Shown here: positions 2,920 through 14,782 of the stretch, in pieces
How the letters are laid out: each line of letters opens with the position of its first letter
Numbering within the stretch: the first letter of the stretch is position 1
Assembly: GCF_025641885.1 (NCBI RefSeq)
Contig: NZ_JAOTQN010000002.1
Span: 62,001-126,000, forward strand
DNA: 64,000 nt
Origin: Pyrobaculum sp. 3827-6
GTDB taxonomy: Archaea; Thermoproteota; Thermoprotei; Thermoproteales; Thermoproteaceae
Direction of reading: 5' to 3'
Notes under the pieces: model-generated
What the model was told of the DNA's origin: nothing
The model's input: only the letters and a program-made list of their open reading frames with translations
Database searches by the model: none
Translations under genes and position numbers: made by a program

Positions 2920-3429
2920 CTATTTTGTAAAAACTAGATACTTCACGTAAGTGGGAGCTGGCATCTGCCACACGACGTAACAACCCCGCTGAGATAGATC
3001 CACCAAATCGCCTTGACTACATGTGGCCAACGGCGTAGTACCTTGAGCATAGATCTTAATGTTTGTAATGTTATAAACCGCCTTATATACAGATGTACTA
3101 GACACTCCAGAGCCTCTATACGCGGTCATATTTACGTATACAACGAGGATGTCATTTTCATTCACCAACTTTATTGAGTAGAAGAAGGAGTCGAAAGGAG
3201 GCGAGAAGCTAGGCAACGCTATAGACATATTAAAACGATAAACATTTGGCAAGGTGATAGAGGAGATGCCAGCCCTTATCTGGTTAGCCACGGAATCAGC
3301 CAAGGCCTGAGCCATAGACGCGGTCTCTTGATCAAACGCCATCTGCGCCTGCACGTTTACGATATAGGCAATCAGTACAGAGAGCAAGCCGGCGAAGGCC
3401 ATAGAGACCGCCGTCTGTAAAGCATTCAT
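2920..3429 (-). CDS. Pseudopilin-like protein, last gene of the minor-pilin operon
   Basis: A 169-aa protein with a hydrophobic helix at the extreme N-terminus (about residues 6-27, AVSMAFAGLLSVLIAY), then a polar, N-glycosylation-rich domain (several N-x-S/T) with two cysteines near the C-terminus. One N-terminal helix followed by a beta-rich outer domain is the pilin/pseudopilin plan. Its ATG overlaps the TGA of the gene before it (ATGA at 3426-3429), so translation is coupled. It has no close family I can name. It is probably a minor subunit displayed outside the cell. Confidence 0.7.
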   Translation of the reverse strand: MNALQTAVSMAFAGLLSVLIAYIVNVQAQMAFDQETASMAQALADSVANQIRAGISSITLPNVYRFNMSIALPSFSPPFDSFFYSIKLVNENDILVVYVNMTAYRGSGVSSTSVYKAVYNITNIKIYAQGTTPLATCSQGDLVDLSQRGCYVVWQMPAPTYVKYLVFTK

Positions 3430-4031
3430 CGCAACTCCAACCTAACCGGAACTACCAACACCTTCGACACGCCGCTTAGATCTACACCGGCAAGAACGCA
3501 GTCCCCAGCGTTGTAAGCCACCGGAGCCGTGATGTTGTAATATAAGGCGACGCCTGAAGCCCTCTGAGCCGCTGTGTACGTAATATTTAGCACCACCGCG
3601 ATGTCGCCATATTTAACAACCCGGGGCGCCATAGATAAAGACGTCCCCCACCCCCGCACTGCAATAGGAGTGTCAGGCGCGTACACCACCTTGCCCCAGT
3701 TCACACCCCGCAACATACCAGCCACAGACAAGTACTGCGACTCGTATACAAACGTAGTGTTGAAAACCGCCGCGCCGCCGCACATGCCCATCTGCGCCAC
3801 GCTGTACTTCAACGAGCCAAAGCGCAGAGTAGGCAGATTAATAACCCTCTGCGCGAATGCGGCCCCCATGTCGCTCTCCAGAGAGTCTGCCACCAAGTTA
3901 AAAAACGCAGAGACACTACGCATCTCCACAAGAGCTTGGTAGTAGTATATCTGCTGGAGTATAAACGGCACAACGGCGAATATGGCAACCAGCGCAAACG
4001 AGGTAATTATAAGCAACTCTAAGGACTGCAT
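3426..4031 (-). CDS. Pseudopilin-like protein
   Basis: A 201-aa protein whose N-terminus (MQSLELLIITSFALVAIF) matches the class III/pilin pattern of a very short polar stretch, S-L-E, then a long hydrophobic helix. The rest is a predicted extracellular beta domain with two cysteines that could pair. A GTG at 4037 is in frame, but the ATG at 4031 places the S-L-E motif at residues 3-5, as in the pilin at 12591. It overlaps the preceding gene by 13 nt and the following one by ATGA. Confidence 0.7.
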   Translation of the reverse strand: MQSLELLIITSFALVAIFAVVPFILQQIYYYQALVEMRSVSAFFNLVADSLESDMGAAFAQRVINLPTLRFGSLKYSVAQMGMCGGAAVFNTTFVYESQYLSVAGMLRGVNWGKVVYAPDTPIAVRGWGTSLSMAPRVVKYGDIAVVLNITYTAAQRASGVALYYNITAPVAYNAGDCVLAGVDLSGVSKVLVVPVRLELR

Positions 4032-5239
4032 GGCCACAGCGGCTTAAGATTCTGCAAATCCCCACTACCTATCGACAAGACGCCGCCCTGGTGAACAACC
4101 CAGTAAGTAACTCTGTAATCCCTAAAGGAGAAGTCAATCCTAGTTACATTCTTGCCGACGTCTGGCGCCACAGGCGCCGCGGTGGTGTTGAAGTAGACAA
4201 GGGGATAACCGCGTTCGCGTTTGTTCTCCAGCTTCTGGTTCTGAGGCGGCGGGGGGCAGAGTATGTTTTTCGGCACTAAGTAGAGCGGTATATTTCCCAC
4301 AACTATTTTAACGAGGGGCTCGACGTAGTTCGCCGAAAGGTCTATCCAGTACACCGCAGAGTACATGGTGTAGTTGTACAGTCCGTAAAGTCTGGAGTCC
4401 CTCACCTCGGAGTAGCCTATTATATACGCCCCGTCGTCTGTTTTTATGAAGGTCCTGTTCATAATGCTTATATAGGCAGTCCAGCCGTACGGCGCGGTTG
4501 TAGTAATGTTTATACAAGTCCGGTAGCCGCAGACATCATCCGACGAGCCCTCGCGCGGTAGCAACCTAACGGACACTCCGTACTGCGCAGTGACGTTTAG
4601 CCCAGCCAGGGCCAGGAGAGAGACGTTCATCACCACAGAGCTCCTGTACAAAGCAGACGTCAAATTACTAGACAACACAATAGCGAAGCTGTGCACATTA
4701 TGCTCATTGCCGTCGCTGTCGTAAAACGACAGACGCGAAACCCACGAGGGGAGGGGTTGCGTCAGATGCGTGCCGTTTGGGACAGGTTGCAACATAACAG
4801 TAAGGTTGAAGTAGCCCGGGGTATACAGCTTAATTGACCTCCCCCCTCTATAAACCATCGTCGGTTGCTTCACGGAGAGGCCCAGGACCCCCCTATTCAG
4901 CTCGAAAAACACCACCGTGCTGTTCATCATAGCCAAAGATCTGTTCACATGAAGCCAGTACAGGTAGGCGTCGGCGCCGCCGATGTATGGAAGCGCCGAG
5001 GCCAGGAAGGCGTAGCTGGCGCTGGAGGCGCTGAAGTTGACAAGAGACGCCAGCCCCATGTAATCCACATAGGAAGACAAAACACCAACAGCCTTCGACA
5101 CGTCTCTAGAGAAGACGCCGTAAGCCGCCCTCACCCCGCCGTAGCCAGGGGAAGACGCCGCAATAGACTGCAGAACCAGCACCGCAACTACAGCCACCGC
5201 GATCAACACAGCAATTAGGAGTATAACCTGGCCCCTCAT
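4019..5239 (-). CDS. Large pseudopilin-like surface protein
   Basis: A 406-aa protein with an N-terminal membrane helix (residues ~4-24, after MRGQ) and a large, probably glycosylated ectodomain with about ten N-x-S/T sites. The ATG at 5239 overlaps the TGA of the upstream gene as ATGA, which makes it preferable to the in-frame ATG at 5257. No enzymatic motif is visible. Position and topology suggest a structural or adhesive minor pilin. No named family recognised. Confidence 0.7.
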   Translation of the reverse strand: MRGQVILLIAVLIAVAVVAVLVLQSIAASSPGYGGVRAAYGVFSRDVSKAVGVLSSYVDYMGLASLVNFSASSASYAFLASALPYIGGADAYLYWLHVNRSLAMMNSTVVFFELNRGVLGLSVKQPTMVYRGGRSIKLYTPGYFNLTVMLQPVPNGTHLTQPLPSWVSRLSFYDSDGNEHNVHSFAIVLSSNLTSALYRSSVVMNVSLLALAGLNVTAQYGVSVRLLPREGSSDDVCGYRTCINITTTAPYGWTAYISIMNRTFIKTDDGAYIIGYSEVRDSRLYGLYNYTMYSAVYWIDLSANYVEPLVKIVVGNIPLYLVPKNILCPPPPQNQKLENKRERGYPLVYFNTTAAPVAPDVGKNVTRIDFSFRDYRVTYWVVHQGGVLSIGSGDLQNLKPLWPCSP

Positions 5240-5601
5240 GCGTACACCGCGATACATACAGCAGTGCCGTTAGGCATAACAGAAGCCACAGAAATAGAAA
5301 ACCTAGGCGACGGCACAGTCGGACACACGCCGCCCACAGGCCTCACCACGCTTACACGCGCAAGCGGGTCAATCAACCCAGCCTCCGCATTCGCAGTCAG
5401 CAGAGCCGAGTCCCAGTCGGTCTGAAGCCTAAAAAGGAAGTCTGGGCTGGAGGCGAGCCTCATGGCGAACAGAGCCAGCTCCGAGAACCTGCCCCTCTCC
5501 CCCACCTGCACAGACATAGAGAGGGGAGATGTGTAGTTAAACAACGCAAACACAAGCCCAAGCAACGCCGAGGCAAACACAAGCTCAACAACCCACCTCA
5601 T
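5236..5601 (-). CDS. Small pseudopilin-like protein
   Basis: A 121-aa protein with an N-terminal hydrophobic helix (VVELVFASALLGLVFALF, residues ~4-21) and a short beta-rich outer domain with two cysteines. Start and stop both overlap neighbours as ATGA (5598-5601 and 5236-5239), so it is embedded in a translationally coupled chain. Its size and topology match minor pilins. No specific family is recognised. Confidence 0.68.
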   Translation of the reverse strand: MRWVVELVFASALLGLVFALFNYTSPLSMSVQVGERGRFSELALFAMRLASSPDFLFRLQTDWDSALLTANAEAGLIDPLARVSVVRPVGGVCPTVPSPRFSISVASVMPNGTAVCIAVYA

Positions 5602-7199
5602 CTATACCTAAACACCCACAGCCCAACCTTGTACGTAATCTCGCCGGCGTCCGCCAAAGCCTCGGCGTACGAAGTAACCAACGCCTCAGGCCTCTGCCCA
5701 ACCCACCTCCACCAAGTAGCAAAACGCACCTCATACAGCGGCGGGAGGCCCCCCGTGAGAGGCATCACAACAACATCCCTCTGCGGAATCCCACCGCACT
5801 TGGGCGGATCCCCGTTGGAGTTGCGCTCCACAAGCACAACCAAGAACTTAGCCCTCCCTATCTTACTCCATGGAATGAAACAGCCGGCCTTATCCATTAC
5901 GCCATTGCCACACACAGTGCCCAGATCAAGAGCGACAGATGGGTTTATCGTCACACCTTGCAACAAGTTAGACGTCTGTCCGCCAAGAAAGCCGTAGACA
6001 GCACGGAGGCCGAGAGCCGAGACTCCAGGGTCGTCGCAACCGCAAAGCGAGGTGCTACCAATGTTTTGTATAAGTTTCGAGTGTATGATGTATACCCCGG
6101 CGTCTTGCTTAGCAACAAGCCCTACCAGCGAGACCTGGCCAGAGCCTGGGTACGTGTAGTTAACGCCCCTCACCGCGGCCCCCCTCGCCCTCACAAAGGT
6201 AAACACGGTATTTCCAGGTACTGAAAGAACCGCCCTCCCATCGACACCAGTGTCGCCAGAGAAACACTGTTGCTGAGGCACGATAGATGGCGTGTTCTTG
6301 TTAGGCGGCGCGCAACCGCCAACAGGCTTCACTCCCTGGGCCTGGGCAGTCACATATACATTAGGACCGCTTACGGCTACGGTAGTATCTGCCGGCTCCC
6401 CAGAGAGTTGATATGTGTTGCACCATACGTCGCCTGGATTTATCGTAACTGGGGAGGTAAGTAACTCCTGTCCACCCAGCTTAATGCTGTTTATCTGGAC
6501 GCTCTGGGTGCCCGAGTTGTACAGCCTTATATTGAAGTACCACTTAGCATTCTTACCGCTACCCTGTGAGTAGTAGTAGGCCCCTATAATCTCCACATTA
6601 TACGCCGCTGAGGATGACGAGGCCCAGAATATGGCACAAGCATCCAGCGCGTAGACGCCAGGAGGCGTTATAGAGATAAATGTCTGGCCCCCTTGAATGT
6701 CGAGATTTATCCTGAGAGCAGGCCTTATTACTAACTCAATGTCATACTTATCCCAGTCGCTACCAAATAGACTCTTCAAGATCCTCTGATACACCGAAGG
6801 ATCCAGCTGAGTACTGGAGGGAGTGCCCCATAGATATATGCCGTAGCCAACCTTAGTGACTGGGTAGTCTTGGCTGAATGTTCTAATGCGGCAGATGGCC
6901 TCCGCGCTTCCAGAGAGCGAGGCAAGCGCCAACAACTTCTTGGGATCTAGCTGGCCAGGTATTCCGCTGTCGGCCAGCCCCAGGTCCTGAACCTGGCTTA
7001 TGTCCGTCCAGTCGGCGGGGGAGCCGGGTTGCTGTATAATTTTCTTTAACACCTCCTGCGCGTCGAGACCCACCGACGCCTTGACCTCAGCGGCGCCGGT
7101 GGCAAAGGGGAAGTACCCCATCATGAAGTATATGCCTACCACAAAGAGAGCTACTATGGTAAAAGCGATGAGCATGTCAAGAGACTCTAAACCACGCAT
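5598..7199 (-). CDS. Large pilin-like protein, first gene of the minor-pilin operon
   Basis: A 533-aa protein. The N-terminus (MRGLESLDMLIAFTIVAL) has the short basic lead, L-E-S and a ~20-residue hydrophobic helix of archaeal type IV pilin-like proteins. A middle section around residues 200-270 (LYNSGTQSVQINSIKLGG) resembles the beta-sandwich repeat of archaellin/pilin head domains. The C-terminal half has about ten cysteines, suggesting disulfides outside the cell. It heads a five-gene operon behind its own TATA element. Role inferred: anchor or tip subunit of a pilus. Confidence 0.72.
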   Translation of the reverse strand: MRGLESLDMLIAFTIVALFVVGIYFMMGYFPFATGAAEVKASVGLDAQEVLKKIIQQPGSPADWTDISQVQDLGLADSGIPGQLDPKKLLALASLSGSAEAICRIRTFSQDYPVTKVGYGIYLWGTPSSTQLDPSVYQRILKSLFGSDWDKYDIELVIRPALRINLDIQGGQTFISITPPGVYALDACAIFWASSSSAAYNVEIIGAYYYSQGSGKNAKWYFNIRLYNSGTQSVQINSIKLGGQELLTSPVTINPGDVWCNTYQLSGEPADTTVAVSGPNVYVTAQAQGVKPVGGCAPPNKNTPSIVPQQQCFSGDTGVDGRAVLSVPGNTVFTFVRARGAAVRGVNYTYPGSGQVSLVGLVAKQDAGVYIIHSKLIQNIGSTSLCGCDDPGVSALGLRAVYGFLGGQTSNLLQGVTINPSVALDLGTVCGNGVMDKAGCFIPWSKIGRAKFLVVLVERNSNGDPPKCGGIPQRDVVVMPLTGGLPPLYEVRFATWWRWVGQRPEALVTSYAEALADAGEITYKVGLWVFRYR

Positions 7200-7220
7200 A
7201 CAACTAGCAACAGACTTTCG

Positions 7221-7232
7221 AATTTATATTTT
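7221..7232 (-). promoter_or_regulatory. TATA element of the minor-pilin operon
   Basis: Read on the minus strand, aaaatataaatt lies 22-33 nt before the ATG at 7199. This gives the five-gene set a promoter of its own, separate from the upstream surface-protein gene. Confidence 0.6.
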
Positions 7233-7278
7233 ATGGTGTAACCTCTTTTCTACACTTCAAAAACACACACCATAAGGC

Positions 7279-7645
7279 TCAGGAACAGCGCCCGGCGTAG
7301 ATAGACACCACAAAGCCACCGGCAGTGTAAATCCTCACGTAAAGCGGCGTGGTAGAGGCCTCAATCCCAGACACGACAATCTCATCCACACCCAAGATCT
7401 CCTTCCCCACCGGGTATCTCACGCCGTAGATCTCTACTGAATCTACATACACGGGTTGAGCCGCCGCAACCTCCACCCTCAACAGTAGCTGTCCACCGCC
7501 GATACACGCCTGCAGGATCTTTAGACCCCTCTGCCCCACCGCGACGGAGGAAGAGGCTGAGAAAGTTGTATACAGGTACCACGCAACCGCCAGCGCGATA
7601 ACGAGAACAAACCCCGAGCAACACAGCGTGGTCAAGCGAGAGCAT
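7279..7645 (-). pseudogene. Type IV pilin-like gene interrupted by a one-base frameshift
   Basis: The natural start is the ATG at 7645, which overlaps the stop of the gene before it as TAATG. That frame gives MLSLDHAVLLGV and then leaves the pilin pattern. One base later, at a TTT run (7609-7611), the other frame continues VLVIALAVAWYLYTTF and runs to a stop at 7279. Joined, the two pieces reproduce the N-terminal helix of the pilin-like genes at 12164 and 12591. As it stands, only a TTG at 7635 opens the downstream frame (118 aa), without the class III signal. It may be a pseudogene, a sequencing error or a frameshifting site. Confidence 0.75.
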
Positions 7646-10425
7646 TACTCCTGCATCTCAGCCATCAGTCTCGCCAGCCTCCTGCGCCTCAGGAACCACA
7701 CCAAGAACACCGCGCCAGCCGCACCGCCAGCAATAACCAGCAGTGGAACTGGGTCGAGCGCCCACACGGCCTCGTAACGAGCGGGGCCGTACGCGACAGG
7801 CATCTGCGGGTAGTTGTAGACCACGCCCGTCGCCACATCCCTCCAGCCCTTGAAGACCCAGTGTATCGGAGGCGGAGACCACACGTCCATCGGGGTGGGG
7901 ACAACGGCCACGGTGGCTCCCTCGTCGGCCCAGGTCTGGGGCAGGACTGATCCGTAGGCAGTGCTAAACGTCACGAGAAACTGCCTCTTTACGTCAAATG
8001 TAATGTTAAGCGGTCTTTTCACTACAAAAGACTGCACAGGCGATGTGAGAGTGGCGTTAGGAACGCCGTTTATAACCCAGTTTTTAAACACAGTCCTCAC
8101 GCCGGCCTCCTCCCTGATGACTTGGGGGGCCACCACTCTTATAGACCTGCCTCTATCTACCCACGTGACGTTGCCCTCAACCCCCTCGATGCGTGCAGGA
8201 GGCGCCACGTAGACTAGGTACTGTCTTACATATACAGGCGTTCTATTCAGAGGTCCGGTGACCGTCGCCACTATAGTAGGCTCACGCTCCTCTGTCTCAG
8301 CCCAGTAGCTGAATACATCACGCGTCTTGTTGCGGTACTCCACCACCTGCGTCGCTGATGCGACCACAGTTAAGCCGTATGTGGCCCAGAGCCTACTAGT
8401 CCCGTTGACTGTGGCCCCGGGCCCCGCGGCGACTAGGAAAGACGGCTTGTAGCGCAACACAGCCACCACGGGATACGCGCTGAATCTAGGCGTTCTGCCA
8501 AACCCAACCACGTTGCCAGCGAGGTCATACACCACGACGTCGATGAGGTTGATGCCGTACACACCCTCTGAAACGGTCGCCGGAGCCTCCAACCTGTAGA
8601 CAGCTCTTATCGTAGTAGGCTTATCCACATTCACCGACAGCAACGGAAAGCCGACGCCTGCGGGCCTCCCGTCGACCTCCCAGCCGTCGAAAAGCGCCCT
8701 AGCCGTGCCAGCTGCCAGGGCTTGCAATCTCTGCAACCTATCCGCGAGGTTTGGGAGCGCCTCCACCTCAACCCTAGCCTGCACCGGGAGGGACATGTTG
8801 GCCGTGAAAGACGCGGGTCCAGACGCCCAGTCGGGCCCCTTCACCGCGCCCGGAGGCCACTTATACACTCTAAACTCTTTTACATACTTCAACACAAGCG
8901 GCTCTACCACGTCTCCGTATATCGTAAGCGTGAAGTTGCGCTCCGGCCTGCACCTGACGTCGCCCATGTATCTATATAGAGGGGTCAGCTCTACTCTGCC
9001 ATAGGGCACGTAGAGCACGCCGCTTTTCTCCAGCGTGTATATATAGGCTATATTCGTCCCAGGCACGTACACAGCCATTTCGAGGGGGAGGCAGTCGCCA
9101 GGCGCCTCGACTCTGTAGGGCAACCTAGCCGTATACAGGACGTAAGTGGTGTCCCAGTACTCAGCCGCCACCACCTGCCCGTCGAAAGAAACGGCGACGG
9201 AAGTCACCGGCTTGATGTTGAAGCTACCCAGCTGAGTCACGTTACCAGTGGCATTCCCACCGACGGCTCTCAGCAAAAGCTGGGTCGTAATAGGGTCGGT
9301 CCTCACCACAGGCAGGCCGTCTTTAAAGAGGTATAGGTGGCCGGCCTGCGTGCCGACCGCCACCACAGAGCCGTTCCACGAAGCCGCAACCGCGCTGGGC
9401 TTCGCAGGCATGGAGGTGCGCCACGAGATGCGGCCGTCCCTAATCCCCACAATCTCATTCCCAAGCGCCACGTAGAGCCAGCGCCCGTCTTGACTCATCG
9501 CCGAGGCAAACCTCGGCGTGTCTATGCCGTACGTGACTAGAACGGGATCTGCGAGGAGCAGGCCGTATGGGTACACCGCCACGTAGGGCCGCTCCCTCTT
9601 GACAAAACACAAAGCAACGGGATCCCCGGTGGAGTTGACGTATAGGCCGTACACAGCGCCGCCGCAGGCGCCGAGCCTAGTCAAGCCGGGGCTGTAGCGG
9701 CCGGTCCTCAGCTCGATCTCCGTGGGGAGCCTAAAACGGTAGATCTCGCCGGTGGAGGTCCCCACGTAAACAGTATAGTTGTAAATCGTCAGAGACGTAA
9801 CTGGAGGATCCAGGGGCGGCCTCGCCATGCTCTCTCGGCGCAACAACCCCCCGGGGTCTATGAGAAATCTATCTATGATTCTGCCGTCGCGCAGTACGTA
9901 AACCTCGCCGAATACAGTCGCCGCGACTACATACTCACAGTTAGTGGCCACCGCAGTGACGTTGGCGCGCGGCCCCAGATTCACCGCCCAGAGGGGGTAG
10001 CCGTAGGGCGTGTGCAGAGATACTATAGTAGTCTTGTGAACAGAGGCCAACACGACAGGAGGCAGAGGCAGGGTGAGGTTCAGCAACACCGGTATCCTCT
10101 GCGGGAGCCTCACGCCGTACTGAGCCAGCGCCTCTACTATCTCAGGTGCGAGCTCTATATCTACGTAAAAACTCCTCGTGACAGACCCCCTACTTACTGT
10201 AACTTCATATATGTAGAGGCGGTTAGCTACTGCGAGACATCTGCCAGCCCGGTCGGTGGCTATGAGGGGGTAAATAGCGCTTTGGCTCCACAGCTCCCTC
10301 CCATCAAGTCCCACTATCTTAACAGAATCAGGTCTAGCCCAGTAAAACGTGTCGAGAGACTCGGTAGGCAAGATGTTTGCCATCACCACAACGGCAAGCG
10401 CCAGCGACAACACCACCAACCTCAT
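7645..10425 (-). CDS. Secreted, membrane-anchored surface protein with beta-propeller-like N-terminal half
   Basis: A 926-aa protein with a Sec-type signal peptide (MRLVVLSLALAVVVMANILP) when started at the ATG at 10425. The frame is open to 10524, but a TATA box sits 22-30 nt before 10425. Residues ~30-470 carry repeated W/Y-x-V-x-x-G-x-x-G-blade patterns (for example VYVGTSTGEIYRF, VVAVGTQAGHLYLF), suggesting a PQQ/WD-like propeller. The second half has Ig-like repeats of the form FxxWxxxG. A single helix and RRRR tail near the C-terminus anchor it. It is translationally coupled to the frameshifted pilin gene. An adhesive or S-layer role is inferred. Confidence 0.78.
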   Translation of the reverse strand: MRLVVLSLALAVVVMANILPTESLDTFYWARPDSVKIVGLDGRELWSQSAIYPLIATDRAGRCLAVANRLYIYEVTVSRGSVTRSFYVDIELAPEIVEALAQYGVRLPQRIPVLLNLTLPLPPVVLASVHKTTIVSLHTPYGYPLWAVNLGPRANVTAVATNCEYVVAATVFGEVYVLRDGRIIDRFLIDPGGLLRRESMARPPLDPPVTSLTIYNYTVYVGTSTGEIYRFRLPTEIELRTGRYSPGLTRLGACGGAVYGLYVNSTGDPVALCFVKRERPYVAVYPYGLLLADPVLVTYGIDTPRFASAMSQDGRWLYVALGNEIVGIRDGRISWRTSMPAKPSAVAASWNGSVVAVGTQAGHLYLFKDGLPVVRTDPITTQLLLRAVGGNATGNVTQLGSFNIKPVTSVAVSFDGQVVAAEYWDTTYVLYTARLPYRVEAPGDCLPLEMAVYVPGTNIAYIYTLEKSGVLYVPYGRVELTPLYRYMGDVRCRPERNFTLTIYGDVVEPLVLKYVKEFRVYKWPPGAVKGPDWASGPASFTANMSLPVQARVEVEALPNLADRLQRLQALAAGTARALFDGWEVDGRPAGVGFPLLSVNVDKPTTIRAVYRLEAPATVSEGVYGINLIDVVVYDLAGNVVGFGRTPRFSAYPVVAVLRYKPSFLVAAGPGATVNGTSRLWATYGLTVVASATQVVEYRNKTRDVFSYWAETEEREPTIVATVTGPLNRTPVYVRQYLVYVAPPARIEGVEGNVTWVDRGRSIRVVAPQVIREEAGVRTVFKNWVINGVPNATLTSPVQSFVVKRPLNITFDVKRQFLVTFSTAYGSVLPQTWADEGATVAVVPTPMDVWSPPPIHWVFKGWRDVATGVVYNYPQMPVAYGPARYEAVWALDPVPLLVIAGGAAGAVFLVWFLRRRRLARLMAEMQE

Positions 10426-10446
10426 GCAATTTGCAAAAGAGCTTAA

Positions 10447-10455
10447 CTTATATAC
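10447..10455 (-). promoter_or_regulatory. TATA element for the 10425 surface-protein gene
   Basis: On the minus strand, gtatataag lies 22-30 nt before the ATG at 10425. This supports a leaderless mRNA and excludes the longer 959-codon reading. Confidence 0.65.
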
Positions 10456-10705
10456 TTTACGGTGATAACACTGACCTACAAAGATCCACACAGCCTCGGC
10501 AAACCGGTGCGAGAAACTAGCCACATACGAAGTAGCTCGTTCCAGGTTATGTTCTCAGAGGGTTCGGACACAAGTCTAGACAGGTTGCGAACTGCGTCCC
10601 GCACCTCTCACATCTTCCTTCCAACTAAATAAGCATCCGCAGAGACGCTACGTGTAAGCTCCACGCGGTGTTAGATATGCGTCCACCTGCGCGGTCTAGC
10701 TACTT

Positions 10706-11788
10706 TCACCAACCTGTCTTGAAGGGCCCCAACACCCAAGTTAATACAGGCGGCACGCCTAGATACAATAAAGCTATGAAGATGAGTTGCGCCAAGACGT
10801 AGATGCGGCGGGTGAAGAGGTGGAAGAAGGGCGCCACAGCGGCGAAGTACCAGTAGAACCAGCCCGACTGGGCCACAAATACGGACGACGCCGTCAACAG
10901 CGTCTCCAGCGCCAGCGAAGGCCTCATAGCCAGCTCTATCGGAAGTGCACGCCAAGCCACATGGCCGAGCCACGGCGCCGCCGATATGTGGATCTGGTAC
11001 TCCAACACGTCGTAAACCCCCGGCCTGGACACAGCCGTCACAACCTCCGTGCCGTTGTATAGAAACTTGGTGTAGTGCACATACCAAGGCGCCCCAGTGA
11101 AAAAGGTAAGCCACCCCAAGAACGGATTCTTGTGACTATGAAAAGACACGAGCCACCAATAAAACTGCAGATGGTACAGAAATAGGCCCTGAGCCAGGTC
11201 AACGGCGTGGGCAGCCAGAAAGGCCAACGCCGCGCCGACTGTAATCGGCACCAGAGACCTCCTATCCCTCAGCAAGACGTAGAAAACAAAGCCGGCCAGG
11301 GGGAAGGCCGCCGTGAATTTGGAGGCAAGCGCCGCCCCCCACAGCACCCCCGACAGCCACCTCCTCCCCAAGAGGTATGAAATAACCGCAGACACCGAAA
11401 ACAGAGCCACGAAAACGTCAAGCATAGCAAAGCGAGAGGTGGTTGTAAATACGATGTCAGTAGCCAGACTTAGAGACACGAGCCAGAAAGACCTCCCGAG
11501 TAGCCGCCCCAGCCAACCTGCCAGAAACACTGTAGCCACCCCAGCTACGAGCGGCGCAAGCCTAGGTGACAAGCCTATTAGATATTTTGCAAGAGGTGGA
11601 TGTTCAGGATTCGAGGAAAGCGCGGGCGGCACCCCAGCCACCTGCTCCAAACCAGCCTTGATGTAGATCTCCTCGTCTAGAAAGGCGAAGCCGGTGGAAA
11701 AAGAAGCAACTACGAAAAGCGTCACCACAATAAGAACCCCAAGCGCGTCGCGCCCACGCCCCCCTTTAGCAGTTAACCACCCCCACAT
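10706..11788 (-). CDS. GT-C membrane glycosyltransferase (PMT/ArnT-like)
   Basis: A 360-aa polytopic membrane protein with about nine hydrophobic segments. The first extracytoplasmic loop holds D-E-E (FLDEEIYIKAG) followed by EHPPL-KY, the signature of GT39/GT83-type enzymes that use a lipid-linked sugar donor. Such enzymes glycosylate proteins on the outer face of the membrane. Its ATG lies inside the end of the upstream pilin-like gene (23-nt overlap), so it is co-expressed with pilins. The likely substrates are the pilins or surface proteins encoded here, all rich in Ser/Thr/Asn. The donor and linkage cannot be read from sequence. Confidence 0.82.
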   Translation of the reverse strand: MWGWLTAKGGRGRDALGVLIVVTLFVVASFSTGFAFLDEEIYIKAGLEQVAGVPPALSSNPEHPPLAKYLIGLSPRLAPLVAGVATVFLAGWLGRLLGRSFWLVSLSLATDIVFTTTSRFAMLDVFVALFSVSAVISYLLGRRWLSGVLWGAALASKFTAAFPLAGFVFYVLLRDRRSLVPITVGAALAFLAAHAVDLAQGLFLYHLQFYWWLVSFHSHKNPFLGWLTFFTGAPWYVHYTKFLYNGTEVVTAVSRPGVYDVLEYQIHISAAPWLGHVAWRALPIELAMRPSLALETLLTASSVFVAQSGWFYWYFAAVAPFFHLFTRRIYVLAQLIFIALLYLGVPPVLTWVLGPFKTGW

Positions 11789-12164
11789 CTGGCACTACAA
11801 TGGGGTAGAGTATGTAGCTACTCCCGCCGCCCGTCGTGAGGATCAGCGCCGGGGTGGTGCCAGGCGTAAAGGACTCCCCCAGGGAGCCCCTAACCCCCGC
11901 CACCTTGCCCACCGGGACGTTTAGAGATATGTCGACAGACTTCCCAGACTTCACAGACACAACCCACCTCCCATAGAACTCATGGGGGCCAGCGTTGAGC
12001 ACACAAATCAAGAAGTCGCCTCTGGAGTCCACGTAGGCAGAGACGGGGTACACCTGCGCAAACTCCCTAACCCCCGCGGAAAAAGTCGAAAAAAGCCACC
12101 ACCCAACCAGCACCGCAAGGAGAAGAATCACCCCCAGTAGAAAAGCCACCTCAAGAGAAGACAT
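11766..12164 (-). CDS. Type IV pilin-like protein (second copy)
   Basis: A 132-aa protein beginning MSSLEVAFLLGVILLLAV, the S-L-E plus long hydrophobic helix of an archaeal pilin, then GWWLFSTF at the same place as GWYLYTTF in the major pilin upstream. The head domain is about 100 residues and beta-rich, with two cysteines. It begins 31 nt after the stop of the major pilin and overlaps the glycosyltransferase start. It is likely a minor pilin or an alternative filament subunit. Confidence 0.8.
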   Translation of the reverse strand: MSSLEVAFLLGVILLLAVLVGWWLFSTFSAGVREFAQVYPVSAYVDSRGDFLICVLNAGPHEFYGRWVVSVKSGKSVDISLNVPVGKVAGVRGSLGESFTPGTTPALILTTGGGSSYILYPIVVPDVGVVNC

Positions 12165-12195
12165 AGGAAAAAGGGGGTTGTTTTTAGTAGGTCGT

Positions 12196-12591
12196 TTACG
12201 GCTTTACCAGCGCGTTGAACGGGAAGCTCTGGCCGCCGCTCAGTATCACGCGGCCGGGCACCATCGTGCCAGGCGTCCAAGTGCCGCTGAGTGAAACTGT
12301 TAACGTAGTTTGTTGGCCTACTGTAATTGTTTGTGTAACCTGAGTCGACTGTCCCCCTGCTTCAACAGCGCTTATCTGGACGTCCACTGGGCCTGGGTTT
12401 ACTAAGACTAACTTGAGCTCGTTTTTGGAAGCGGTTATTTCTGCCGATACTACGTTTAGCCTTGGCTGGCCTGTGGTGGAGGCTACGAATGTGGTGTATA
12501 GGTACCAGCCGACTGCTACCGCTATTATCAGCACTATTGCTACTATTATCGCGATTTCGAGGCTTGTCATTCCTTTTAGTTTGGTTGCCAT
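12196..12591 (-). CDS. Major type IV pilin-like protein
   Basis: A 131-aa protein started at the ATG at 12591, with a TATA element about 25 nt before it. The N-terminus MATKLKG/MTSLEIAIIV is a class III signal peptide: a short basic leader ending in K-G, then the mature helix with E at position 5. The hydrophobic helix ends WYLYTTF and is followed by a compact Thr/Ser/Val-rich head with no cysteine. Size and composition match archaeal adhesive/type IV pilins. It is first in the cluster and therefore probably the main filament subunit. Cleavage by a PibD-type peptidase is expected; none is encoded here. Confidence 0.85.
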   Translation of the reverse strand: MATKLKGMTSLEIAIIVAIVLIIAVAVGWYLYTTFVASTTGQPRLNVVSAEITASKNELKLVLVNPGPVDVQISAVEAGGQSTQVTQTITVGQQTTLTVSLSGTWTPGTMVPGRVILSGGQSFPFNALVKP

Positions 12592-12920: not shown

Positions 12921-13388
12921 TTAGTATTCCCTCCCCAGTATGAGGTGTATGTCTTCCTCCTCTGCCCTCTTTCTGAGGTACTGGGCGACGTCCCTCGGCG
13001 CGAATTCCACGGCTAGCACCGCTAGATATGTTTTGGCTTCCCTGGACTTCTCGGCGGCTTCGGCTAGTTTCCGTAGCTGTGTGAGGGCTTCTTCTACCTC
13101 TTCTGTGTCTATTAGGGAGACGGCCACTTTGCCGACTACGAGGGGCTGGGGGCAGTAGAGGTCTATCTTCACGAGGCCGTCGGCCGGTAGCCGTACGTCT
13201 AGCCATATGTCGCAGTGCACTCCCCGCTTTTCCAGAAGCTCTTCTACCTCCCTCGCGGCGCGGTACTTAAAGCCGCTGACCTCCTCTAGTATCTCGGTGA
13301 GGATTCTCCTTATCTCTCTGAATCTCTCGTCCATGCGGGAGGTGTAGGAGTCCTTCACACGCTTGCATCGCCACGCCAATTTTAGCAT
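12921..13388 (-). CDS. DUF3782-like nuclease-fold protein, short paralogue with altered active site
   Basis: A 155-aa protein. Its last ~110 residues align with the C-terminus of the 13997-14782 product; both end in IHLILGREY. The shared core looks like a PD-(D/E)XK fold, beta strand D-[IL]-[FY]-C-P-x-P-LVVG followed by the usual acidic position. Here that residue is Lys (VVGKV), whereas the paralogue has Glu (VVGEV). The long tandem coiled coil of the paralogue is missing. MDERFREIRR at residue 19 may be the true start. It is probably a degenerating copy without nuclease activity. Confidence 0.6.
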   Translation of the reverse strand: MLKLAWRCKRVKDSYTSRMDERFREIRRILTEILEEVSGFKYRAAREVEELLEKRGVHCDIWLDVRLPADGLVKIDLYCPQPLVVGKVAVSLIDTEEVEEALTQLRKLAEAAEKSREAKTYLAVLAVEFAPRDVAQYLRKRAEEEDIHLILGREY

Positions 13389-13996: not shown

Positions 13997-14782
13997 CTAG
14001 TATTCTCTTCCCAGTATGAGGTGTATGCCCTCCTCTTCTGCTTTTTTCCGTAGGTATTCCGCTACTTCCCTCGGCGCGGATCCCACGGCTAGTACTTTGA
14101 GCTGTGTCGCGGCGCCGGTGAACCTCTCCGCGGCTTCTACCGAGCGCCTCAGTTGCGCCAGCGCGTCCTCCGCCTCTTTGATGTTTTTCACCGCTGTGGT
14201 GACTTCGCCGACGACGAGGGGGCTTGGACAGAATATGTCCACCTCCTTGTAGCCGGCTGTTGGCAGGGTCACGTTTACCCGTATGCGGCAATCCACGCCT
14301 CTCTCCCTTAGGAGGTCCTCGACTGCCCTCGCCACGAGGTGCTCGAGGCCTCTCCCTAGGGCCTCCCTGATGTCCATCAGAGCCGACTGAACCCACTTAA
14401 ACCTCTGATCCTCCAACTTCTCGTGCTCAGCCCAGCGCCTCTCGTTCTCCTCTAGGAATTTTCTCCAAGTCTCGTACCACTCTTGCCACCTCTTTTCGTT
14501 CTCTTCTTGGAACTTGCGCCACGTCTCATACCACTCCTGCCACCGCCTCTCGTTCTCTTGCCACCTCTTCTCATTCTCCTGCCACCGTTTTTCGTTTTCC
14601 TCTTGGAATTTTTTCCACGTCTTGTACCAGCGCCTCCACCTCCTCTCGGAGTCTCGGCGGAGGTCTCTAAGCTCTCTCAACACCTCACCAAGCCCGACGG
14701 CCCCCGCCACAGCCAGCCTAAACTCCTCATCCTCCTCAAGAGCCCTCAAAAACCTACGCTTCTCCTCGGGAGTAAGGCCCAC
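13997..14782 (-). CDS. DUF3782-like protein: repetitive coiled coil plus PD-(D/E)XK-like domain
   Basis: A 261-aa protein with a leaderless GTG start; TATA TATTTATAAAG is about 22 nt before it. Residues ~55-130 are tandem units of two kinds, ENEKRWQ (7 residues) and EWYETWRKFQE (11 residues), forming a Trp-rich coiled coil. The C-terminal ~120 residues form a restriction-nuclease-like fold with D in VDIFCPSPLVVGEV, E nine residues on, and a following Lys/Glu-rich helix. Families of this plan are widespread in thermophilic archaea and of unknown role. The repeats make copy-number change at DNA level likely. Confidence 0.75.
   Translation of the reverse strand: MGLTPEEKRRFLRALEEDEEFRLAVAGAVGLGEVLRELRDLRRDSERRWRRWYKTWKKFQEENEKRWQENEKRWQENERRWQEWYETWRKFQEENEKRWQEWYETWRKFLEENERRWAEHEKLEDQRFKWVQSALMDIREALGRGLEHLVARAVEDLLRERGVDCRIRVNVTLPTAGYKEVDIFCPSPLVVGEVTTAVKNIKEAEDALAQLRRSVEAAERFTGAATQLKVLAVGSAPREVAEYLRKKAEEEGIHLILGREY

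Follow-up and report, generated by a model that had tools for sequence, protein, structure and literature searches.

Gene content of the locus

The window analysed here is a stretch of 64,000 nucleotides from Pyrobaculum sp. 3827-6 (contig NZ_JAOTQN010000002.1; G000:C2:62001-126000), whose genome (G000) comprises 2.30 Mb in 13 contigs. A pilus locus of ten minus-strand genes spans positions 2920-12591 of the window, in the order PIL1, PIL2, GT, PROP and S118, followed by the five genes M533-M121-M412-M203-M169, which we call the cassette. Eight of the products have pilin-type N-termini (PIL1, PIL2, the frameshifted S118 and all five cassette proteins), and the preliminary description of this DNA, which counted at least seven, thus holds. 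It had also reported that the window lacks an assembly ATPase, a platform protein and a prepilin peptidase, and had read the genes as exported subunits served by machinery elsewhere. All matches to T2SSE, T2SSF and A24 were indeed found in other parts of the genome, and the placement of a likely TadC and ATPase at G000:C2:163158-166169 supports this reading. The locus encodes the exported-subunit half of an archaeal type IV pilus, a system of a kind already known; it is real, conserved and ordinary in kind. What is added here is a likely motor, the exchange of the five cassette genes as a block, and the missing leaders of some pilins.

PIL1 (12196..12591) encodes a major PilA-type pilin of 131 aa with a leader of seven residues (MATKLKG) and the mature N-terminus MTSLE. 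In a phmmer search it matched 6w8u_A, the solved pilin of Pyrobaculum arsenaticum, with E 1.8e-17, the match covering residues 11-132 of a 134-aa query. The alignment begins where the mature pilin of the solved filament begins, and the orthologue at the same position in genome G003 is closer still to 6w8u_A (E 1.1e-36). As expected of the PilA family, the major pilin of the locus is therefore a homologue of an archaeal pilin whose structure has been solved. The second PilA-like pilin, PIL2 (11766..12164, 132 aa), is 31% identical to PIL1 and is encoded without a leader (MSSLE). S118 (7279..7645) is a small PilA-like pilin that is frameshifted in the assembly, and its open reading frame (ORF) of 118 aa represents only part of the gene. 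Its counterpart in G003 (L037:6895-7260) is intact, encodes 121 aa and is 88% identical. The alignment of the two reveals a one-base insertion in the window, an extra G in a run of G at about position 7600, so that the pilin N-terminus, which starts at 7645, is read in a different frame from the remainder. The extra base may be a sequencing error or a real mutation.

PROP (7645..10425) encodes an ectoprotein of 926 aa with a signal peptide, a WD40-type propeller (profile match to 6tjh, E 6.6e-8), a beta-rich stalk and a C-terminal transmembrane anchor followed by RRRR, which confirms its earlier description as an anchored propeller protein. A strong homologue is present in 19 of the 19 genomes of the family. 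GT (10706..11788) encodes a polytopic membrane protein, a putative accessory glycosyltransferase of the GT-C (PMT-like) type. The earlier assignment to GT-C stands as far as motifs go, as DEExYxxxA and EHPPLAKYLI resemble those of PMT/GT39, but it found no profile support: searches of Pfam (up to E 1), NCBIfam (up to 0.1) and the PDB (up to 5) gave no match. GT is present in G000, G003 and G006 and fragmentary in G007.

A conserved cassette of five minor pilin genes

The cassette is a chain of overlapping genes, as had been described, with overlaps of 4 nt (M533/M121), 4 nt (M121/M412), 19 nt (M412/M203) and 4 nt (M203/M169). The first gene, M533 (5598..7199), encodes a large minor pilin with the leader MRG and the mature start LESLD, and its homologues are found in conserved order. 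It is followed by M121 (5236..5601), a small minor pilin whose start, MRWVVEL, conforms to a conserved MRWxxEL. M412 (4019..5239) is better started at the ATG at 5239, which yields 406 aa instead of 412, with the leader MRG and a mature protein beginning QVILL. The fourth gene, M203 (3426..4037), encodes a minor pilin with Glu5 whose start reads MA, then MQSLE, and the last, M169 (2920..3429), a minor pilin without a leader (MNALQ).

M203, which served as the cassette marker, was detected in 17 of the 19 family genomes; outside the family, a second one of the order gave weak matches. The genes are not scattered in relatives. The order of the cassette is kept across the family, and because the five-gene order recurs, a chance arrangement can be excluded. 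The proteins differ in the residue at +5 of the mature sequence: an acid or Gln is found there in M533, M203 and M169, and nearly all M412 homologues combine an MRG leader and a QVILL-type start with the lack of an acidic residue. M412 also varies in size. It has about 400 aa in four genomes of the window's genus (G000, G001, G003 and G004), and about 1,090-1,250 aa in other relatives where complete, so that the window carries the short form of this large, Glu5-less tip candidate. A lectin domain, LamG or another, was suspected in the long forms, but Pfam gave no support for it.

Block exchange between close relatives

The clearest exchange is seen between the sister genomes G004 and G005. For each of the five cassette proteins, identity between the two is just 25-34%, while the flanking DNA is 92-97% and the PROP protein 97% identical. 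One junction, at L038:7522, falls between PROP and M533; the other, at 11918, is 20 bases beyond the stop codon of M169. A tree of M533, M203 and M169 rejects the grouping of G004 with G005 (approximately unbiased (AU) test, p 0.0009), whereas the tree of ATPase and TadC unites them (100/99). Judging from these sequences, exactly the five cassette genes have been replaced together. Replacement of the cassette as an exact unit is to be expected if its products interact physically in a complex.

The reverse situation is found when the window is compared with its sister G003. Here, the cassette proteins are 96-99% identical except for M412 (82%), but PROP is only 49% and PIL1 53% identical. Synonymous divergence, estimated by the Nei-Gojobori method and thus rough where saturated, is 0.08-0.15 in M533, M121, M203, M169 and a flanking gene, but 0.96-1.4 in GT, PROP and PIL1; parts of the M412 head reach about 0.7-1.1. 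The PROP tree rejects the grouping of G000 with G003 (AU p 2.5e-5), which the motor tree unites (100/100). As the genome pairs were chosen after inspection of the identities, the AU p-values are descriptive. High identity stops at position 8023 of the window, in the C-terminal part of PROP, and an 86% match returns at 12486, in the N-terminal region of PIL1. The segment exchanged, which comprises PROP, GT and the PilA head, is therefore the one that includes the exposed heads, while the anchored ends were kept.

Two simpler explanations were rejected. Mere fast evolution of PROP does not account for a synonymous divergence that exceeds the flank's roughly tenfold, nor for a tree in conflict with the motor tree; positive selection as the only cause of the M412 divergence fails for the head, where synonymous divergence rises as well. 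The exchange of both the cassette and the PROP-PIL1 segment fits recombination. A virus-driven cause is a conjecture, suggested by the binding of virus PFV2 to the related pilus of P. arsenaticum (PMC7347861).

Pilins that appear to lack leaders

Leader lengths of 6-26 residues are given in a review (PMC4471445). Within the locus, the features of a class III signal peptide are distributed unevenly: PIL1 and M533 have a leader and an acid at +5, M412 has a leader but no acid at +5, M203 has a leader of two residues, and PIL2 and M169 have none; M121 does not fall plainly into any of these classes. A Met occupies mature residue 1 in PIL2 (MSSLE), in M169 (MNALQ) and in M203 of many relatives (MTSLE, MQSLE), usually with an acidic residue at +5. 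Upstream of PIL2, the reading frame is closed by a TAA 13 codons away with no ATG, GTG, TTG, CTG, ATT, ATC or ATA in between; upstream of M169, a TAG lies 4 codons away, again without a start codon. In a scan of the stretch between the upstream stop and the +1 Met, 12 such genes, belonging to four families and 10 genomes, had none of these seven codons. In another genus (g2), by comparison, orthologues have an MRG leader before LEALE or ISAIE (ISAIE in the M169 orthologues), so that a leader has been gained or lost within one family.

Several pilins of the locus thus appear to be encoded without a leader. The alternative, which concerns only this part of our reading, is that all minor pilins are processed normally and that the missing leaders reflect non-canonical initiation or sequence errors. 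The MRG leaders of several orthologues speak for normal processing, and the assembly does contain at least one frameshifted pilin, S118. Still, errors or alternative starts would have to be invoked for 12 genes in four families and 10 genomes that lack any candidate start codon, in one of which only GAC GAC separates the Met from the upstream stop, and we consider this explanation unlikely. Literature searches, which had partial coverage, retrieved no report of leaderless pilins. The initiator Met of archaea is not formylated and therefore could replace a processed N-terminus.

A pilin-like gene beside the 4G-like pilus ATPase of the same genome (L017:2914-3396; G000:C1:342914-343396) starts MNVVEAV and has ATT and ATA codons upstream. 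Missing leaders may perhaps not be restricted to the pilus system described here.

The likely motor and the prepilin peptidase

The 19 kb to the left of the window contain no pilus genes. The TadC and ATPase pair at C2:163158-166169 lies about 89 kb from the locus and has no pilins beside it in G000. The ATPase has an orthologue in 19 of the 19 family genomes, and its surroundings in other lineages are informative. In genus g2 (G013, G014 and G015) the order is M533-M121-M412-M203-M169, an MptE-like gene, a gene for a small protein, TadC and ATPase (M121 was not called in G014). In G012 and G016, cassette and ATPase are at most about 16 kb apart with other genes between them. G017 has the order PIL1-PIL2-TadC-ATPase with PROP 2 kb further on, G018 has PROP close to the ATPase, and G008 has PIL1-PROP followed at some distance by TadC-ATPase. 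Taken together, these arrangements link all core parts of the locus, except GT and S118, to one motor somewhere in the family. For its PilA-type pilins the genome thus encodes a likely cognate ATPase and TadC, the orthologues of which are linked to pilins of this system in G008, G013, G014, G015 and G017.

In the genus of the window, the ATPase is about 83-103 kb away from the cassette in the eight genomes that have both on one mapped contig (with the distance in G002 counted across the origin). Because this spacing recurs, the split between ATPase and cassette is an old trait of the genus. By guilt by association, the C2:163158-166169 pair is likely the motor of the locus subunits in this organism. 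For the prepilin peptidase there is a single A24-type match in the genome, at C3:131263-131547, with E 7.3e-5, just below the Pfam cut-off.

Two observations concern the surroundings and the integrity of the motor genes. In genus g2, the gene that follows the cassette, and precedes TadC/ATPase where these are adjacent, encodes an MptE-like (pterin diphosphokinase-like) protein (L046:14556-15170, L049:14079-14693, L053:9910-10449). A stop codon or frameshift divides the ATPase orthologue of G015 (C1:778263-779751; L048:16794-18258) into two ORFs, and that of G012 has an in-frame stop; in both genomes this may reflect decay of the motor or faulty sequence.

Comparison with known systems

The P. 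arsenaticum pilus (6W8U, PMC7347861) shares with PIL1 the leader length, the N-terminal helix and an alignment over the whole head, and PIL1 can be regarded as a divergent head allele. In the part of that report consulted, the major pilin alone is identified, with mention of neither a motor nor minor pilins or a tip. Taken as a whole, the system resembles subclade 4E of the Thermoproteales type IV pili in the 2016 census of Makarova et al. (PMC4858521), which is marked by its ATPase and by pilins of arCOG05475 and arCOG03739 and described as having PilA-family major pilins, conserved accessory secreted proteins, and an ATPase with TadC, a membrane protein and a cytoplasmic component; M203, with its weak matches outside the family but within the order, agrees with this. 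The 4B-like locus at C1:1183 kb (TadC-ATPase-TadC), the 4G-like locus at C1:346 kb and a 4D-like ATPase are recognisable elsewhere in the genome, which leaves the C2:163158 ATPase for 4E. By description and by this elimination of 4B, 4D and 4G, the system is probably clade 4E. The claim that the five cassette pilins match no named minor pilin stands for Pfam and NCBIfam, but with this probable place in 4E the system is less isolated than it implied. Cassette exchange and missing leaders are not described for 4E in the available text of the census.

Other systems share single features. GspHIJK, FimU-PilVWX and PilABC of Streptococcus sanguinis (PMC9934059) are likewise co-encoded minor pilins with oversized heads, one of them large and without Glu5 and the others with it. 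The cassette differs from them in having five genes, some leaderless members, no motor at the locus and no detectable homology. Similarity to Sulfolobales systems is seen in the motor pair, where TadC matches UpsF (E 4e-9) and the ATPase has matches to BasE and to the archaellum ATPase. PMC4858521 calls the Ups and attachment-pilus loci simple, and the part of it consulted mentions neither a five-gene minor-pilin cassette nor a propeller ectoprotein for them.

The ATPase at C1:91 kb (C1:90940-91440; L019:6844-8776), which has no pilins and lies beside a TFIIB-like gene and one that reads as RPB8-like, corresponds to the 4D system, a puzzling one, of the census. Next to the locus in the window, the genes at 12921-13388 and 13997-14782 have similar C-terminal domains (ending HLILGREY). 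One of them has a long charged coiled-coil repeat, and the pair looks like a duplicated family.

A proposed filament with an exchangeable tip

We consider it probable that PIL1 forms a filament with a co-inherited, GspHIJK-like initiation and tip cassette, with M412 at the apex, the C2:163158-166169 pair as the motor, and some pilins made without a leader. Gene content, conserved order, ATPase linkage in other lineages, block exchange and missing upstream start codons are read directly from the sequences; the roles of filament, tip and base, and the use of this ATPase in the present organism, are inferred. The A24-type peptidase (C3:131263-131547) would cut the leaders of PIL1, M533 and M412, while PIL2, M169 and probably M203 would be translated straight from the mature N-terminus and need no cut. 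TadC and the ATPase would pull the subunits from the membrane and stack them. The M533-M121-M412-M203-M169 complex would start the filament and stay at its tip, PIL1 would form the filament together with PIL2, and PROP would stand beside the pilus base as a membrane-anchored ectoprotein. M412, as the one large member without Glu5 that a GspHIJK-type set contains, would be the contact head. Its placement follows the argument of PMC9934059, which states why a Glu5-less subunit sits atop the filament: like the apical GspK, M412 has no acid at +5.

Several results weigh against this reading. The cassette proteins gave no useful match in Pfam or NCBIfam and no detectable homology to GspHIJK, PilVWX or pilin families, and a profile search with M203 against PDB chains gave no match. 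AlphaFold runs on two-sequence alignments reached a pLDDT (predicted local distance difference test) of 34.8 and 33.7; only the N-terminal helix of M203 came to about 70, and the head folds were unreadable. Two more pilus ATPase systems of the genome, at C1:1183 kb and C1:346 kb, are in principle able to act on the locus subunits. Finally, other archaeal systems have their minor pilins placed near the base by analogy with archaella (PMC4858521).

The cassette might instead form a separate short pseudopilus of the secretion or sensing type that shares the ATPase, with its adjacency to PIL1 and PROP being secondary. Such an arrangement would explain why the cassette adjoins ATPase/TadC in genus g2, where PROP is far off, and why PIL1/PROP alleles change independently of the cassette. 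However, PIL1 and PROP adjoin the same ATPase/TadC in G017 and G008, which gives one motor for three modules, and five different minor pilins without a cognate major pilin would be odd; we thus regard a separate pseudopilus as rather improbable. That the cassette proteins decorate the base or shaft, as minor subunits linking the pilus to the S-layer, draws on the basal placement in the census and on the membrane-anchored PROP as a plausible partner, but is least likely of all, as replacement of a five-gene unit and a variable giant Glu5-less head suit an exposed tip better and the types of PROP and cassette do not co-vary.

More tentatively, and with somewhat less than even confidence, the filament-and-tip reading can be extended to Thermoproteaceae pili with interchangeable five-protein tip cassettes and, separately, interchangeable PilA-head/propeller segments, exchanged in whole blocks at a fixed site of the chromosome and served by a near-constant motor. 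Some tip pilins would be leaderless, with the Met as mature N-terminus and without a need for the peptidase, and the exchange would perhaps track viruses that use the pilus as a receptor.

Significance

To our knowledge, hardly any tip complex of an archaeal type IV pilus has been characterised. For this family, a defined candidate tip complex and its likely motor can now be named, and the natural block replacements between close relatives act as swap experiments. Pili can be the first contact of viruses of hyperthermophilic archaea, as with PFV2 and the P. arsenaticum pilus (PMC7347861). If the leaderless pilins are true, they would challenge the rule that the prepilin peptidase cut precedes pilin assembly.

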